A stretch of DNA of 36,700 nt from the IMG/VR virus record IMGVR_UViG_3300009008_000118, positions 1-36,700 of that record; one strand, 5' to 3'. Under the pieces are notes generated by a model. The model searched no databases, was not told the DNA's origin, and saw nothing but the letters and a program-made list of their open reading frames with translations. Numbering within the stretch: the first letter of the stretch is position 1; every line of letters starts with the position of its first letter. Positions 7,584-16,759 of this stretch are shown in pieces. This DNA is from a virus. A program made the translations under genes and the position numbers.

Positions 7584-10571
7584 TCAATCTCCGCACCCTC
7601 CTCCTGTGAGGGAACAGGCTTGCCCGTCTGCGGTAACGACTTCTTTAATTTGTTGCATATATTTATCGACATTTTCTTTAGTTAAAGGTATTGCTTGTAA
7701 AGGTTCATTTCCATGACTCCCCGCACGATAAATTGTTAAACCTTTCATGTAAGGCATAAAATCTAAAGCTTGGTTAATCAAATCAGAGGATTCAAAGTCC
7801 TCTGGTAAGTTAATAGTTTTGCTTAAGGCTGAGTCTATATAATGTTGAATAGTGGCTTGTACTCTCATGTGGTCTTCTGGGGTAATGTCATAAGCACCGA
7901 CAAAAGCGCCCAATTCCTTGCCCTCATTATGATACTTCTGGAACAAAGGGTCTACTACAAGAGTTTCTTTCCACACATTACCTTGGCGGTACCTTCTCTT
8001 GTACATTGCAGAAAAGATAGGCTCTATACCAGAGCTTACGCCCATCAACATGGAAATGGTCCCAGTAGGAGGAACCGTCAAAAGGACTGCGTTTCTTATA
8101 CCGTACTTACGAAGGTAATGTCTTATTCTAATAGGGAGAGTTTTACTAAACCCCTCTTTCATGTATTTGTCCCTATCAAACGCAGGGAAGGGCTGCTTGT
8201 CTCTTGCTAGGTATATTGAAGTTTTATAAGCCTCATCCCTAATGGTGGAAAATAATCGTTCAAGAAACTCTAAACATTTTTCGCTACCGTAGCGTAAACT
8301 AAGTTTAATAAGCATGTAATGAAGACCTAGTACACCAAGCCCTATCCTTCTAGAATTGTGCCCTACTTCTTGACATTTAGGAATAGGGAAATGATTTATA
8401 GTTAAAACATTATCTAAGAAACGAACACCTGTTCTTACTGTCTTCGCAAGTTTAGGCCAATCAACTTCTCCATCCTCAGTTACCATGTTGGAAAGATTAA
8501 CATTACCTAAACAACAATTCCCATAACTGGGTAGGGGTATCTCACCACACCCCTGAGAAACAATACCCTCAGAAATCCAAGTATCCGTAATAGGTTCGTA
8601 TAGATCATAAACATCTGCAAAACCATCCTGTTCAATTTTTTTAATTTTTGTTCTATGAGTATTAGTACCTAGCTTCCCAAAAATAACTGCTTTTTTTATT
8701 TTCTCTCTCTTTTCTGGGTGAGAAAGTTTTATATTATTATGGAAAGTAACTATATTACTTGCATTAACCCAAACATCATATTTTGGAGAATTACTTTTTA
8801 TTTTTCTACCATCGTAGGTATGCTCTTTCCTCTCCTGCTCATACATTCTAGCATGAATACCAAATAATAAAAGAATCCTTTTAACATCTGTTGCTAATCT
8901 TTTACTACCAGAACAAAAACGAATATGCGGCAAAGATCCCTTTAAATTTACTGTCCCATCAGTAGAAAATAGTCCGTCCAGAAGCCCTGAGAGGAATTGC
9001 TTGTTAGTATTAATATACTCTAAAGGAATATACTTATAAATAGCCTTACACTTAGGTATACTAGACTTTTCTAAAAGATGAACTACTTCGCTAGTAGATC
9101 CATAATTTAAAGTAACTGCTTTAGTTTGTCTACCTCTAGAATCATAATAATATTCCTTTGTTGTTTCCCCGAACACATCTTCTAATAAAGAATTCCATTC
9201 AACTTCTTCTATATTAGAAGATAATTTTAATCCCTTACTTTTTTCAGTAAAACAACCGTCCCCTAGTACAGTTCCTAAAATAAATCCATATTCTCTATCT
9301 GAATACTTCGATGGTTTGTTAGGAACTTTATTGTTTGGCATTTGTCCTGTAGCAACTCTTACCGTATCCCCTACTTCTAAATCTTTAAGAGAAAGCTGTT
9401 CCCAAAACTGATTAACTCCAGTACCCTTTACTGCATAAAACTTATGGGCCAAAGTACAAGATTGTTCCGATCCGTCCGAGAAAGTTACCTTAAAAACAGG
9501 AAAATTTTCATGTTTTTCAATCTCTTGAATTGGTCTATCAATACCCTCAACTGTTGTAATCTCATCCCCTACTTTAAAATCTTCTACCTTTTTATACCCG
9601 TCTGGGGTTAGAACTAATGATCCTTTTTTAAGGCATGGATTTGTACTATCTAAACTTTCAAAGTAACTAGTGTTAGTATGTCTGTTAGCAAGATCAATAT
9701 TATAAACCCCAGGATCTCCTGAATTAACAGAGTTCGTCCAAATCTTTTCCCAAATCCACTTAGCTTTAATATTCTCTTTCTTTACAAACTCAAATGTTTC
9801 GGACCAGTCCTGTAAGTGGAACCCTTTAGCTCGTTCTATAGCATCATCTTCATCAAGAGCAATAACATTTAAATACCTTTGAACCCCTTTGTTTGTAGTA
9901 GCTTGTAAAACATAGTTATAATACTCTCTGTTATTAAAAGTAAAGTACCAATCTTCGTCTAGCTGTACAGCCTCAACAAACCTATCAGTAATACCTACAG
10001 AAATATTGAAATTTGTAAGCTCACCCTCATCTAATTTAACATGTAAAAAATCCAAAAGGTCTGGGTGAGTTACATTTAGAATTCCTATAAGGGCAGTTCG
10101 TCTAGCCTTACCAGACTTTACATGCTCACCAACCTCATTTATCATCTTAAGAAAAGAGACTGCCCCTGGGGCTGAATTCTTAACATTAGAAATGTCATCA
10201 CCTTTAGGACGAATCTTAGATACATTAAATCCTATGCCACCACCAGCACAAGAGATATTATACATATCGTCAAGAGTTTTTCCTATACTCCCTACAGAAT
10301 CCTCTGGGGATATTACATAACAGTTAAGTAGATTATGCTTTCCAGCATTCCTGCCTGCTCCATAAATGATACGGCCCCCTGGTACAAAATCCCCATCAGC
10401 AATAGCGTCATGGAAGACCTTCTCATACTTAGCTTTATCATCGTCAGGCTCCGCAGAGGCTACAGCCCTTGCTACAATCTTAGCTCTCTCACTCCACTTA
10501 GTTTCCCCAGGATAGGCATATCTAGTGTTGAAAATCTCTTGTCCAAGGTCTGTTAACTTAAGTCTTGTCAT
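7584..10571 (-). CDS. nrdJ: Class II (B12-dependent type) ribonucleotide reductase precursor with an intein at the catalytic cysteine
   Basis: The 995-residue precursor reduces ribonucleotides to deoxyribonucleotides for phage DNA synthesis. Extein landmarks are NCYVI (Cys84), FNISVGITD, the active-site CGEIPLP at residues 675-681, GIEPIFSAMYKRRY, SKTINLP and IYRAGS. The C-terminal Cys-rich redox tail is ACSLTGGGCG. The GIEPIF/YKRRY region and tail, with no NrdB beside it, favour class II (NrdJ). An in-frame intein occupies residues 313-674, leaving 633 extein residues. A segment at about 216-262 (EYYNYVLQATTN to FEFVKK) looks like an extra insertion between the FNIS motif and the DPGVYN helix. 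An AGGAGAA site precedes the ATG. The start overlaps the gp46-like gene stop by 4 nt. Confidence 0.88.
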   Translation of the reverse strand: MTRLKLTDLGQEIFNTRYAYPGETKWSERAKIVARAVASAEPDDDKAKYEKVFHDAIADGDFVPGGRIIYGAGRNAGKHNLLNCYVISPEDSVGSIGKTLDDMYNISCAGGGIGFNVSKIRPKGDDISNVKNSAPGAVSFLKMINEVGEHVKSGKARRTALIGILNVTHPDLLDFLHVKLDEGELTNFNISVGITDRFVEAVQLDEDWYFTFNNREYYNYVLQATTNKGVQRYLNVIALDEDDAIERAKGFHLQDWSETFEFVKKENIKAKWIWEKIWTNSVNSGDPGVYNIDLANRHTNTSYFESLDSTNPCLKKGSLVLTPDGYKKVEDFKVGDEITTVEGIDRPIQEIEKHENFPVFKVTFSDGSEQSCTLAHKFYAVKGTGVNQFWEQLSLKDLEVGDTVRVATGQMPNNKVPNKPSKYSDREYGFILGTVLGDGCFTEKSKGLKLSSNIEEVEWNSLLEDVFGETTKEYYYDSRGRQTKAVTLNYGSTSEVVHLLEKSSIPKCKAIYKYIPLEYINTNKQFLSGLLDGLFSTDGTVNLKGSLPHIRFCSGSKRLATDVKRILLLFGIHARMYEQERKEHTYDGRKIKSNSPKYDVWVNASNIVTFHNNIKLSHPEKREKIKKAVIFGKLGTNTHRTKIKKIEQDGFADVYDLYEPITDTWISEGIVSQGCGEIPLPSYGNCCLGNVNLSNMVTEDGEVDWPKLAKTVRTGVRFLDNVLTINHFPIPKCQEVGHNSRRIGLGVLGLHYMLIKLSLRYGSEKCLEFLERLFSTIRDEAYKTSIYLARDKQPFPAFDRDKYMKEGFSKTLPIRIRHYLRKYGIRNAVLLTVPPTGTISMLMGVSSGIEPIFSAMYKRRYRQGNVWKETLVVDPLFQKYHNEGKELGAFVGAYDITPEDHMRVQATIQHYIDSALSKTINLPEDFESSDLINQALDFMPYMKGLTIYRAGSHGNEPLQAIPLTKENVDKYMQQIKEVVTADGQACSLTGGGCGD
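8550..9635 (-). mobile_element. Intein with LAGLIDADG homing endonuclease inside nrdJ
   Basis: This is a 362-residue in-frame insertion starting at Cys (CLKKGSLVLTPDGYKKVEDF, block A). Block B is CTLAHKFYAV, with Thr61 and His64 in intein numbering. Two LAGLIDADG-like helices are FILGTVLGDG (about 118-127) and FLSGLLDGLFSTDG (about 214-227). Block F is DVYDLYEP, followed by ITDTWISEGIVSQG. It splits the RNR motif TNP-CGEIPL exactly before the catalytic Cys, which would act as the +1 nucleophile. The C-terminal residues are Ser-Gln-Gly and not the usual His-Asn, so the normal Asn cyclisation step is not available as written. It could still be active by an unusual route, or it could be defective. 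Confidence 0.88.
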
Positions 10572-13118: not shown

Positions 13119-13786
13119 TTAAGTAAAGCCCTCCAAGACATAGGAAACAATTCAGACATAATATCATCAATAGCAAATGAGAAATGTTGTGTCTCTTCTT
13201 GTGCTGTATAGCTGCTGCGCTGATCTACTACTCTAGAAAAAGATGCTAGAGATCCTGTCCAATACCATTCTGTATACATACACTGAGGTAAAACCCCCCG
13301 TGCTATCTCAGGGGCTAACCCATTTATTATCGCAACTTCATAAGCTTCTTTAGCTAAGTCTACAGATTGTTTATAAAGGGACTTTACTGTTTCCTTATCT
13401 TCAATCTCTTTATCACCTGAGCCTTGTTTAATCTTCTTAGCTGGTCTCTCACGCCAGAAATAAGGGGTATAAAACTCAGGCTCATAATCTACATAACGGC
13501 GAGAGATCTCATTTTCTACCAAACCAACCTTGTGCTTAAAAAGTTGTGTTCTTACAAATACAGGTGCTTTTATATGAAGCTGGATCTGTGGGTGAGCGAA
13601 GGGAGTCCAATGATTATTATTTGCTAAATATCTAATTAACCGTTCATCTTTTTCATCTAATTCTGTGCTATGCTTATTAAAAGAAACCCTAGCCGAATTA
13701 ACAACCGTTAAATCAGAGCCCATCCAATCTACTAAACGAACAAACCCGTAATCTAAACAATAAACTGTATAATCTTTATTAATCAT
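13115..13786 (-). CDS. thyX: Flavin-dependent thymidylate synthase ThyX
   Basis: The 223-residue protein methylates dUMP to dTMP using FAD and methylenetetrahydrofolate. The family signature region is present in the variant form KHKVGLVENEISRRY (residues 84-98), ending in the usual NE-x-S-x-RY. The leading RHR of the classical signature is KHK or shifted here, a form I associate with phage ThyX proteins. The C-terminal active-site helix region reads ARGVLPQ, followed by SYTAQEE. An SFNKHS segment near the N-terminus and HWTPFAH also fit. It sits with nrdJ in a nucleotide-supply group. Its start overlaps the polymerase palm gene by 8 nt and its stop overlaps the gp47-like start. Confidence 0.92.
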   Translation of the reverse strand: MINKDYTVYCLDYGFVRLVDWMGSDLTVVNSARVSFNKHSTELDEKDERLIRYLANNNHWTPFAHPQIQLHIKAPVFVRTQLFKHKVGLVENEISRRYVDYEPEFYTPYFWRERPAKKIKQGSGDKEIEDKETVKSLYKQSVDLAKEAYEVAIINGLAPEIARGVLPQCMYTEWYWTGSLASFSRVVDQRSSYTAQEETQHFSFAIDDIMSELFPMSWRALLK

Positions 13787-14891
13787 TAAAATAATTTAAT
13801 AGTTCTGTAATATTTTTTACCTTACCATCCTCATAACATACTTCTTTGCCATCTCCAAAAGAGTGACCTACCTCAGCATCAATAGCAAGAGGTACATCAA
13901 AATGTATGCCAAAATCCTTACGAAGAGTAGGGGTAGATACCATTTCATTATAGCAAACCTCTAAGCATTCTTTTAAGGTTTCCTTAGGACAAACTAGCTC
14001 TAAAGAATCATGAACAGTTGATACTAGATCTGCCCCTAAAGGTTTCAACCTTGTAGAAAGACCTTTTATAGCACACAATATAATATCAGAAGCGGCAGAC
14101 TGTATAGTAAAATTTAACCCTTGCCTAAGAGCCCTTCGTACAATCTTATTATCTCTTGAGAAAGCGTTAGGTAGCCTGCGCTTACGACCAAATATAGACA
14201 CTACACTACCTGTCTCACTAATAGTATCGTAAGTGCTGTTTATATATTTACCTATTCCTGGGAACACCTCCATATAAGTGTTGATGATATGTTCCGCTCT
14301 ATCCATAGATATTCTATTATTGTTAGCTAAGGTGAACGCAGTTCCACCATAAACAATCAAGAAAGAAGTCGCTTTGGCAATTTGCCTCTCCCCCTTAGTA
14401 ACACTTTTTTGGCTCTTATTAAAAAGTAAGGAAGCAGAATAGCTATGAAGATCAGCGCCATCCTTAAAGGCAGAACACATACGCTCATCCTTAGCTACAT
14501 GAGCTAGAACTCTAAGCTCCATGCCTGCGTAATCTATTGTTAGGAATGCCTTATTGTCAGGTGCAATAAACATCCTTCTGATATTGGTATCAGTATCTCT
14601 AGGAAGAGTATGAAAGGATACCCCCATGGCTTTATCAGCATGATAAGATCCGCAGGATAGCCTGCCTGTTACTGTACCATCTAATTTATAATCACAATAA
14701 ACTTTATTCTCACCATTATACTCAATAGCCTTATGCAAGCCTCTTATATAAGTTTTATGTAGTTTTGCTGCCGCTCTCCAGTCTAACAGCTTACTTATCC
14801 ACTCTCTTGCTTGCTCTAACTCATCAGTTGTTCTCTCTTGAAGTACACTACGGGCTACTAGTTTTTCTTGATCTTTTCTTCTTCTTTGCAC
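13779..14891 (-). CDS. Family A DNA polymerase, palm/fingers piece (third of three consecutive pieces)
   Basis: This 370-residue piece contains the whole polymerase active site. Motif A is TIDYAGMELR (Asp120, Glu125). Motif B is RQIAKATSFLIVYGG (Arg169, Lys173, Phe177, Tyr181). The palm helix is GLNFTIQSAASDI. Motif C is TVHDSLEL (His294, Asp295), where Ser replaces the common Glu of HDE. The exonuclease and thumb regions are missing and are encoded in the two preceding genes. The only start available is a GTG at 14891, two codons after an in-frame stop. It overlaps the preceding piece by 44 nt, so either GTG initiation or a +1 frameshift must give the product. T4 itself uses a family B polymerase, so this is a different replication lineage. 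Confidence 0.88.
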   Translation of the reverse strand: MQRRRKDQEKLVARSVLQERTTDELEQAREWISKLLDWRAAAKLHKTYIRGLHKAIEYNGENKVYCDYKLDGTVTGRLSCGSYHADKAMGVSFHTLPRDTDTNIRRMFIAPDNKAFLTIDYAGMELRVLAHVAKDERMCSAFKDGADLHSYSASLLFNKSQKSVTKGERQIAKATSFLIVYGGTAFTLANNNRISMDRAEHIINTYMEVFPGIGKYINSTYDTISETGSVVSIFGRKRRLPNAFSRDNKIVRRALRQGLNFTIQSAASDIILCAIKGLSTRLKPLGADLVSTVHDSLELVCPKETLKECLEVCYNEMVSTPTLRKDFGIHFDVPLAIDAEVGHSFGDGKEVCYEDGKVKNITELLNYFND

Positions 14892-15360
14892 GGTCTTTTA
14901 ACTCATCTGTAATAAAATCTAATATTTCGTCAAGAGTAGCCTTATCAGTAGAAGGCTCTCCTTTGGCTGTAAGCTTAGGTGGATATAATAAAAACCCCTC
15001 CTCAGATGTAAAAAGTATTTCTCTTAAATCTACAGTAGAGGCTAGGTTAGCAGAGGTACTTACATGGGCGTTCATTAAAAGATCATCTTCTATAGACATA
15101 GCTTTAAAATCTAATGCTTTACCTACAGACCCTAGTTCTTTTTTCTCAACATGAAGACCCTCAAACTCCATATCAGCAAATACTGGTAATACTGGGCTTA
15201 AAAGTTTGGACATAATTTCCCAACAACCCTCATCCTTTAGCTTTTCCTCAAGAACATTAAATAACTTTAAAGTAAAGTAAGTATCAGCAGCATTACCATA
15301 AAGACAATCTGCTAAGGGAATGTTAACCCAATCAAAGTTTTTTCCATTTACTGTAAGCAT
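14848..15360 (-). CDS. Family A DNA polymerase, exonuclease-III motif plus thumb piece (second of three)
   Basis: The 170-residue piece begins within the 3'-5' exonuclease domain. LYGNAADTYFTLKLF (Asp26) aligns with the Exo III region of Pol I (Y..xD-x-x-x-TL), and the domain's first two motifs are in the preceding gene. It continues with a helix of the Pol I pre-thumb type (PVLPVFADMEFEGLHVEKKE). The Lys/Arg-rich end is KDRAKKKKRSRK. Its ATG shares one base with the stop of the previous piece (TAATG, 15358-15362). Its frame is offset -1 from the first piece and +1 into the third, so the first and third pieces share a frame. It is a real coding piece by homology. Whether it is a separate polypeptide is uncertain. 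Confidence 0.78.
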   Translation of the reverse strand: MLTVNGKNFDWVNIPLADCLYGNAADTYFTLKLFNVLEEKLKDEGCWEIMSKLLSPVLPVFADMEFEGLHVEKKELGSVGKALDFKAMSIEDDLLMNAHVSTSANLASTVDLREILFTSEEGFLLYPPKLTAKGEPSTDKATLDEILDFITDELKDRAKKKKRSRKTSSP

Positions 15361-16379
15361 TAGAGTTGGTCAATCCCTTCTGGGAAGAATAGTTTCACTA
15401 GTTCCTTAAGGCTCTTAGGAATGTCCTCGTTCCATAAATGGGCCATCAGCTTAGTATCATAGACATTTACTGGGTAAATTTCAATGTTATGAAGGAATTT
15501 CAGGTCAAATTTCGCATTATGAAATATCTTCCTGTTACGAGGGTTTATTAAAATCTGTCTTAGCAAATTAACTACATTTTCAAGCTCAGATTTAACAAAC
15601 GGAGTATCCTTATGGAATAAAGGTATAGCGTAGTTTCCATTGGAGAAAGAGATTGCTATAGTATTAAGCTTGTCTGTAAGGAAATTAAGCCCTGTGGTCT
15701 CTACATCAACAGCTATATCCTCATCAGTATCTACAAGCCAATCTAGCTTATTAAGATCATCATATTCCGTAATAAGGGTCACAGGTATTTTATCTGCCTT
15801 AACACCAACAATTACTTTAGTAAGAGCATTCTTTATATCCTGCTCAAAAATATAACGGTTCTTAGGTTCTGTCTGAACAGAGAAAGGGTGATATACTGGT
15901 ACGCATACGAATTTATGTCCATCATCAGTTTCTATATTGAAGGAGGACCCTCGTTTAGTGGTTATACCAGATTTCTTGGTCACCATCTTAAATGCTAAAT
16001 TACCACAAGCAATAACCAACTTAGGTTTAACCTTATCTATTGTTTTCCATAAATGCTGGCGACAAATATGAGTATCGCTAGTTTTCATGTCTGCTTCACG
16101 AACCGTAGGGCATTTAACAGAAGAACTAAAGGAAACCGTACAGTCACCAGGGAGATTGGTATTAACAAGTATATCAGTAAGAACCTGTAAGTCTCTATTA
16201 GTGAAGGCATTACTGCGTCCATTATTGTAAGAAAAGGAGTCAGAAAGGAACAATACATCAGACTCCTCTAAAGACTCATAATCTAAAATACAATGTACAG
16301 GCTTAGATCTCTTTAATTGTGAGCATCCTTTGCATAATTCGTGGATAGGGCATTCTTCATAAAGATTTAAAACTTCCAT
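15360..16379 (-). CDS. SPO1-type polymerase N-terminus: UDG family 4-like domain plus Exo I/II motifs (first of three)
   Basis: The 339-residue piece has two domains. Residues 1-190 resemble family 4 uracil-DNA glycosylases ('phage SPO1 DNA polymerase-related'). They carry cysteines fitting the Fe-S cluster (Cys16, Cys19, Cys90, Cys106), VKCPTVREAD, KPKLVIACGNLAF and YHPFSV (164-168). The usual GEAPG motif is degenerate (LSDSFSYNNG), so glycosylase activity is doubtful. Residues 215-339 are a DnaQ-like 3'-5' exonuclease with DVETTG (Asp225, Glu227) and HNAKFDLKFL (Asp292). The third exonuclease motif is in the next gene. Transcription probably starts in the short divergent interval shared with the sigma gene. 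Confidence 0.85.
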   Translation of the reverse strand: MEVLNLYEECPIHELCKGCSQLKRSKPVHCILDYESLEESDVLFLSDSFSYNNGRSNAFTNRDLQVLTDILVNTNLPGDCTVSFSSSVKCPTVREADMKTSDTHICRQHLWKTIDKVKPKLVIACGNLAFKMVTKKSGITTKRGSSFNIETDDGHKFVCVPVYHPFSVQTEPKNRYIFEQDIKNALTKVIVGVKADKIPVTLITEYDDLNKLDWLVDTDEDIAVDVETTGLNFLTDKLNTIAISFSNGNYAIPLFHKDTPFVKSELENVVNLLRQILINPRNRKIFHNAKFDLKFLHNIEIYPVNVYDTKLMAHLWNEDIPKSLKELVKLFFPEGIDQL

Positions 16380-16408: not shown

Positions 16409-16759
16409 ATGGGTAAAAATTACATAGATAACGAACGATTTGAGGAACTTATTGTATTATATGTCAATAACCCTAGAAAATACGAAGATGAATTATTTTC
16501 TTTGTTCGATTTACTTATATCAAATGTAATGGGTGCATTTAACTTTAATGTAAACCCAGAAGACGCAAAACAAGATTGTTTCGTGTTAATTTTAAAAACA
16601 CTACAGAACTTCAATCCCCAAAAAGGAAGTGCTTTTAACTTCTTCACAACAGTTATTGTTAATAATTTAAAACTCATTTATACAAAAAATAAGAAGTATA
16701 ATGAAAAAATTAAGAACCTTGAGGAGATGCTAGGGTATCGAAACCCAAAACCCTCCTAA
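16409..16759 (+). CDS. 55: gp55-like late-transcription sigma factor
   Basis: The 116-residue plus-strand protein resembles sigma-70 region 2 as reduced in T4 gp55. The segment EDAKQDCFVLILKTLQNFNPQKGSAF, then NFFTTVIVNN and LKLIYTKNKKYNEK, matches the gp55 pattern of an acidic helix, F(D/N)P-x-KG, a short aromatic helix with N-x-(F/L), then a basic helix. gp55 directs host RNA polymerase to late promoters. The protein is shorter than T4 gp55 (185) and lacks a recognisable C-terminal clamp-binding tail. It is one of only two plus-strand genes and sits between the replication and virion modules, where a late switch is expected. Its 3' end overlaps the convergent minus-strand gene by 50 nt. Confidence 0.75.
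   Translation: MGKNYIDNERFEELIVLYVNNPRKYEDELFSLFDLLISNVMGAFNFNVNPEDAKQDCFVLILKTLQNFNPQKGSAFNFFTTVIVNNLKLIYTKNKKYNEKIKNLEEMLGYRNPKPS

Follow-up and report, generated by a model that had tools for sequence, protein, structure and literature searches.

Can a replicative DNA polymerase be built from three separately encoded chains, two of which share the carboxylates of its proofreading site? This question is raised by a stretch of viral DNA of 36,700 nt (IMG/VR record IMGVR_UViG_3300009008_000118, positions 1 to 36,700; hereafter the window), in which three consecutive open reading frames (ORFs) on the minus strand, here called p1, p2 and p3, together span a DNA polymerase of family A. A proofreading exonuclease is, in the textbook view, a single compact active site within one fold. 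A previous sequence-only reading of the window had suggested that the three frames encode separate proteins and that the site is split between two of them, and had named programmed frameshifts and assembly indels as alternatives. Here, we analysed the three ORFs, their junctions and their relatives. We found that p1, p2 and p3 are separate genes and that this arrangement is fixed in a diverse clade of phages, and we favour, with a probability of roughly 0.8, the reading that they are three separately translated subunits of one SPO1-type polymerase with a uracil-DNA glycosylase (UDG)-like, an exonuclease and a polymerase part, in which the exonuclease site is composite.

Three frames along one family-A polymerase

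All three ORFs are present where the sequence-only reading had located them. The first, p1 (339 aa; 15360–16379, minus strand), starts with a domain resembling family-4 UDGs, continues with a 3'-5' exonuclease carrying Exo I and Exo II, and ends in the loop preceding Exo III. It is followed by p2 (170 aa; 14848–15360, minus strand), which holds the Exo III segment and the first half of the thumb, and by p3 (370 aa, GTG start; 13779–14891, minus strand), which comprises the thumb segment running into helix I, the fingers and the palm with motifs A, B and C. In Pfam searches, p1 matched PF03167 (UDG; residues 58–173) and PF01612 (exonuclease; residues 203–331) and p3 matched PF00476 (residues 18–346, E-value 9e-75), while no Pfam match was obtained for p2. 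On the phrog_17 DNA polymerase profile, the three products are nevertheless contiguous and cover positions 481–784 (p1), 794–942 (p2) and 927–1251 (p3) one after the other. Profiles built from relatives were placed in the same order on the Klenow chain, with the exonuclease part of p1 at chain positions 4–132, p2 at 159–294 (profile of 22 proteins, E-value 1.5e-12) and p3 at 302–587; the p3 profile also aligned to Bst polymerase. If the Klenow chain numbering begins at residue 324, as we assume, the first cut falls in the loop ahead of the Exo III helix, between Klenow residues ~455 and 482, and the second in the thumb ahead of helix I, between ~617 and 625. Both cuts are located in loops of the fold.

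Following these placements, p1, p2 and p3 are parts of one family-A polymerase in three frames. As is typical of the family, motifs A, B and C with their catalytic Asp, Lys and Asp are present: motif A was found in 91 of 92 sequences, and both motif B (R-x3-K-x3-F-x3-YG) and VHD in all 92; a single chain uniting thumb, fingers and palm was not found, as the thumb is split between p2 and p3 at all 94 distinct junctions. The domain limits given by the sequence-only reading hold for Exo I/II, Exo III and palm/fingers, but need correction for the thumb, which had been assigned to p2 as a whole and is in fact cut internally. An AlphaFold2 model of p1 (predicted local distance difference test score 82.5) had the family-A DNA polymerase of phiLo (9qhs; 333 alignment columns) as best match in the PDB, followed by family-4 UDGs and exonuclease domains of apicoplast polymerases; superposition of the whole model on 9qhs was poor (root-mean-square deviation 18.6) and was used for the domain order alone. 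When p2 was modelled by itself from a shallow alignment of 22 rows, it gave helices without a confident tertiary fold (predicted template modelling score 0.29), in line with a chain that depends on partners to fold.

The UDG fold of the first 190 residues of p1 is indicated by PF03167, by a Foldseek match to 4zbx (TMt 0.66) and by four invariant cysteines (C16, C19, C90 and C106) at the Fe-S positions of family-4 UDGs. The family-4 catalytic motif A, GExPG, is absent from p1, and because it is replaced by the segment LSDSxxxx, the domain is best described as UDG-like and probably has a structural role.

Junctions and inserts among the relatives

In the window, p1 and p2 meet in the sequence TAATG (junction 1, J1; 15358–15362, minus strand), in which the p1 stop codon TAA (15362–15360) and the p2 start codon ATG (15360–15358) have one base in common. 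p2 and p3 overlap by 44 nt (junction 2, J2; 14848–14891, minus strand), from the p3 GTG at 14891 to the p2 stop codon TAG at 14850–14848, and p1 and p3 lie in the same reading frame; the initial description of the junctions was accurate. A search of IMG/VR with p3 yielded the best 80 loci, down to approximately 53% identity, and profile searches with p1 and p2 together with one genome search added further loci to a total of 232 fetched, each scan being confined to its best 80 loci. One of these loci is practically the window itself (L001; 1 difference in 17,110 bases), while the remaining relatives are distinct.

Both junctions recurred in all relatives spanning them. Among 101 distinct J1 sequences, 56 were stop/start overlaps (TAATG, TGATG or TAGTG), 45 carried an insert and none was fused; among 94 distinct J2 sequences, the offset was +1 in 73 and +2 in 21, and none was in frame. 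Relatives with the same junctions, for which the sequence-only reading had suggested to search, are hence abundant, and relatives with a restored frame were found neither at J1 (0/101) nor at J2 (0/94), which supports, at the level of sequence comparison, its main claim of separate proteins with the proofreading carboxylates on two chains. The end of p1 and the beginning of p2 are always found at one position of the fold, and p1, p2 and p3 occur together in the loci spanning them.

The case for separate genes is made most strongly by the inserts at J1. They measure 176 to 2406 nt and are placed exactly between the p1 stop codon and the p2 methionine; some consist of a 91-aa ORF in sense orientation and many of antisense ORFs, one type of which has a lipoprotein-like N-terminus. 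Mapped on the p3 tree, insert presence changes 10 times, with at least six of these changes forced. An Rfam search at gathering thresholds of the window and seven relatives, insert-bearing ones included, detected no intron, and a comparison of four representative insert proteins with PHROG detected no endonuclease (best match phrog_6764, function unknown, E-value 0.007); neither an endonuclease gene nor an intron, as expected for a polymerase split by a homing endonuclease, was hence found at the split. Inserts at this place would be incompatible with an enzyme that requires p1 and p2 in one chain, except if the pieces were spliced, and the window and the seven relatives gave no Rfam intron.

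CTATATATTA or a near variant adjoins the p2 start codon in antisense orientation in all 18 antisense loci examined (L014, L026, L059, L062 and 14 others; e.g. L026:7502–7514, minus strand), where it stands ahead of the antisense insert genes. T4 late promoters consist of an 8-bp TATA box at −10 without a −35 element (PMC2988020), and the element resembles these promoters, making it a candidate T4-like late promoter. Several antisense insert proteins (from L024, L050, L062, L066, L067, L015 and L020) contain motifs such as MNSYDRIYxLLxE and GxSIWxTYRxxxYxLxE, some of them repeated within one protein, and proteins with motifs of this type are perhaps virion or injected proteins. Divergent from p1, the window has a small ORF (16409–16759, plus strand) with a weak match to sigma-70 region 2 (E-value 0.0011, under the Pfam cut-off), the product of which is possibly a late sigma factor similar to T4 gp55.

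At the second junction, a homologous GTG or ATG start codon for p3 was present in all loci examined. p2 and p3 overlap by between 4 and 44 nt, or are separated by a short spacer in four loci (L009–L012); the window thus stands at the upper end of the range, with its GTG aligned to that of the relatives and a longer p2 C-terminus. The J2 frame changes three times on the p3 tree. In all these aspects, J2 looks like a usual overlap between two translated genes. A Shine-Dalgarno-like core (GGAG, GAGG or AGGA) was found ahead of p3 in 54 of 75 loci, and ahead of p2 in 33 of the 46 loci where the genes are adjacent versus 4 of the 29 with inserts, all counts being made without regard to shared descent. 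In most loci, p3 has a start and a Shine-Dalgarno sequence of its own. Glu-codon bias upstream of p3, used as a test for Shine-Dalgarno selection, was not significant (75 GAG/35 GAA versus 1980/1268, p = 0.14).

Both splits are older than the sampled diversity, as no close unsplit relative that could serve as an outgroup was found and the nearest fused polymerases are only about 30% identical. The phages in which the split appears to be fixed form a large uncultured group with many members from marine data. One relative with the same split polymerase (L082, QCKN01000003.1) comes from the Prochlorococcus single-amplified genome AG-409-P03, on a contig of 130.6 kb; this possibly reflects a host link or a co-sorted virus. 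Searching 50,697 phage records with p2 returned one distant match and no close relative of the clade.

A proposed composite exonuclease site and its rivals

The DxE of Exo I (D225 and E227 of p1; 15699–15707, minus strand) and the NxxFD of Exo II (N288–D292 of p1; 15504–15518, minus strand) are invariant in the alignment, and the motifs were found in 103/103 and 102/103 full-length distinct p1 proteins, respectively. On p2, the Exo III motif G-N-x-x-D (G22–D26; 15283–15297, minus strand) is likewise invariant in the alignment, with G and D in 91/91 proteins, and alignment to Klenow puts Asp26 at the position of D501, where the aspartate is kept. The four acidic residues of a DEDDy exonuclease are hence all present and essentially invariant, D, E and D on p1 and the last D on p2. 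They remain so while the proteins diverge by up to approximately 60%. All finite dN/dS values (nonsynonymous to synonymous substitution rates; ten pairs) were below 0.2 for p1, p2 and p3, and the pairwise distances of the three proteins correlate with r = 0.85–0.90. All three are under purifying selection.

Might the pieces still end up in one chain? The least credible of such explanations, to which we assign a practically negligible probability, is that sequencing or assembly indels disrupt a normal single-chain gene. The A-rich J2 overlap and the metagenomic origin of the window speak for it, but the recurrence of the same junctions in many samples, with about 100 distinct sequences and the contig from the single-amplified genome among them, refutes this alternative of the sequence-only reading. 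Its other alternative, programmed ribosomal frameshifting yielding one or two fused products, we consider very unlikely as well, even though an A-rich stretch makes up the J2 overlap of the window and the frame of p3 stays open across it. At J1, frameshifting is ruled out by inserts of 0.2–2.4 kb at 45 of 101 distinct junctions, many of them with antisense ORFs, and in the window itself the p2 frame has a stop codon 10 nt upstream of the p1 stop. At J2, the shift needed would be +1 or −1 depending on the clade and some relatives have a spacer; with frame offset and spacing so variable, frameshifting is very unlikely there, too. Rejoining of the pieces by RNA or protein splicing, be it through a group I intron, trans-splicing or a split intein, is about as improbable. 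Polymerase genes of SPO1-like phages carry introns (PMC10580990 and references therein), and the SP8 polymerase is annotated as two coding sequences with an HNH endonuclease between them. In the window, the gene of the large ribonucleotide reductase subunit (7584–10571, minus strand) contains an intein that carries a LAGLIDADG endonuclease. Against splicing stand the empty Rfam search of the window and seven relatives, the p1 stop and p2 start exactly at the junction with no intein halves remaining, and the commonest form of J1, a one-base overlap that leaves no room for an intron.

Does p1 work together with p2 and p3 at all? The genes could be separate with p1 acting on its own, as a DNA-binding or UDG-like protein, next to an exonuclease-deficient polymerase of p2 and p3. 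The distance of up to 2.4 kb between p1 and p2, antisense genes included, is compatible with this idea. The main caution, which concerns proofreading in trans, comes from Exo III, where the position of Klenow Y497 is occupied by glycine in 91 of 91 p2 proteins; the tyrosine typical of DEDDy exonucleases is absent, while the aligned fused relatives have a tyrosine at this position. This exchange and the weak Shine-Dalgarno sequence of the p3 start in the window, a GTG following GATGAGTTAAAAGACC, weigh against our favoured interpretation. The Exo III tyrosine contributes to catalysis, though it is less critical than the carboxylates, and therefore the composite site may proofread more weakly or use another residue. 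An independent p1 nevertheless appears unlikely to us, although it is the most credible of the rivals: the acids of Exo I, II and III are essentially invariant on both chains despite the protein divergence, the boundary between p1 and p2 is fixed in the fold, and the three pieces co-occur and co-evolve in rate.

We hence prefer three separately translated subunits in one polymerase. In the mechanism that we propose, p2 would be made through coupled re-initiation where its start overlaps the p1 stop or, where other genes intervene, from a start of its own, and p3 would initiate at its own GTG or ATG, inside the end of p2 or shortly after it. The chains would assemble non-covalently: p1 would contribute Exo I/II together with the UDG-like domain, p2 would add the Exo III helix, completing the exonuclease fold, and half of the thumb, and p3 would provide the remaining thumb, the fingers and the palm. 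Judged from the sequences, the three chains very likely assemble as one polymerase, and the assembled chains would be active as a polymerase. Because the acidic residues are conserved on both chains, a proofreading site built in trans is likely. More tentatively, the enzyme could be an obligate heterotrimer in which p1 brings DxE and D to an in-trans site, p2 brings the last D and the Exo III motif is altered (Tyr to Gly), and to which p1 is possibly added, or from which it is withheld, during infection. If true, the supply of p1 could toggle proofreading, for example where a block of antisense late genes separates p1 and p2.

The clade is a natural system for asking to what extent a replicative polymerase tolerates being cut into functioning pieces, and whether the supply of one chain regulates proofreading. 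From a practical perspective, gene callers and marker-gene surveys based on polymerases will overlook or mislabel this clade, in which p2 is without any Pfam match.

Relation to known split polymerases

The three products align end to end along polymerases of the SPO1/phrog_17 type, represented by SP8/SPO1, Rhizobium phage P11VFA, Caudoviricetes MW202455 and phiLo (9qhs), which have the same order of UDG-like, exonuclease and polymerase parts; identity in the polymerase domain is only approximately 30%. In P11VFA and MW202455, a single ORF encodes the enzyme and the Exo III tyrosine is present, in contrast to three ORFs and a glycine here. The two coding sequences of Bacillus phage SP8 are broken at a place different from J1 and J2.

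The sequence-only reading had pointed to the far-T4 phage RM378 (of Rhodothermus), and as an analogy this holds, since two of its genes, Rm378p024 and Rm378p092, carry a DNA polymerase annotation. Homology is not indicated: the p1, p2 and p3 profiles had no match among the ORFs of the RM378 genome, in which Rm378p024 looks like a putative PolB exonuclease.

Separate genes for a replicative polymerase are also found in Aeromonas phages 25 and 44RR with their split gene 43, and gp43A and gp43B of phage 25 co-purify and are active (PMC2988022); this polymerase, however, belongs to family B and is in two pieces, with either a seg endonuclease or an untranslated insert associated with the split. 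For NrdA of phage Aeh1, which is likewise split, separate chains give full activity (PMC2988022). As here, a core enzyme is cut in a functionally critical region, but the enzyme is a different one and was split by insertion of the homing endonuclease mobE, whereas no homing endonuclease was identified at J1 or J2. MEP401 and MEP402 (Zobellviridae, phages of OM43) are marine phages whose family-A polymerase is encoded by two ORFs with a small gene in between (PMC10580990). Their enzyme is in two pieces and not in three, and the cut in MEP401 lies in the palm region ahead of motif A, so that gp13 has its exonuclease and thumb segments whole. The open-licence PMC literature searched yielded no family-A polymerase encoded in three parts and none with a cut through its exonuclease site. 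Phage polymerase genes in two pieces were already known; the three-way cut of a family-A polymerase, through both the exonuclease site and the thumb, has no counterpart within this literature.

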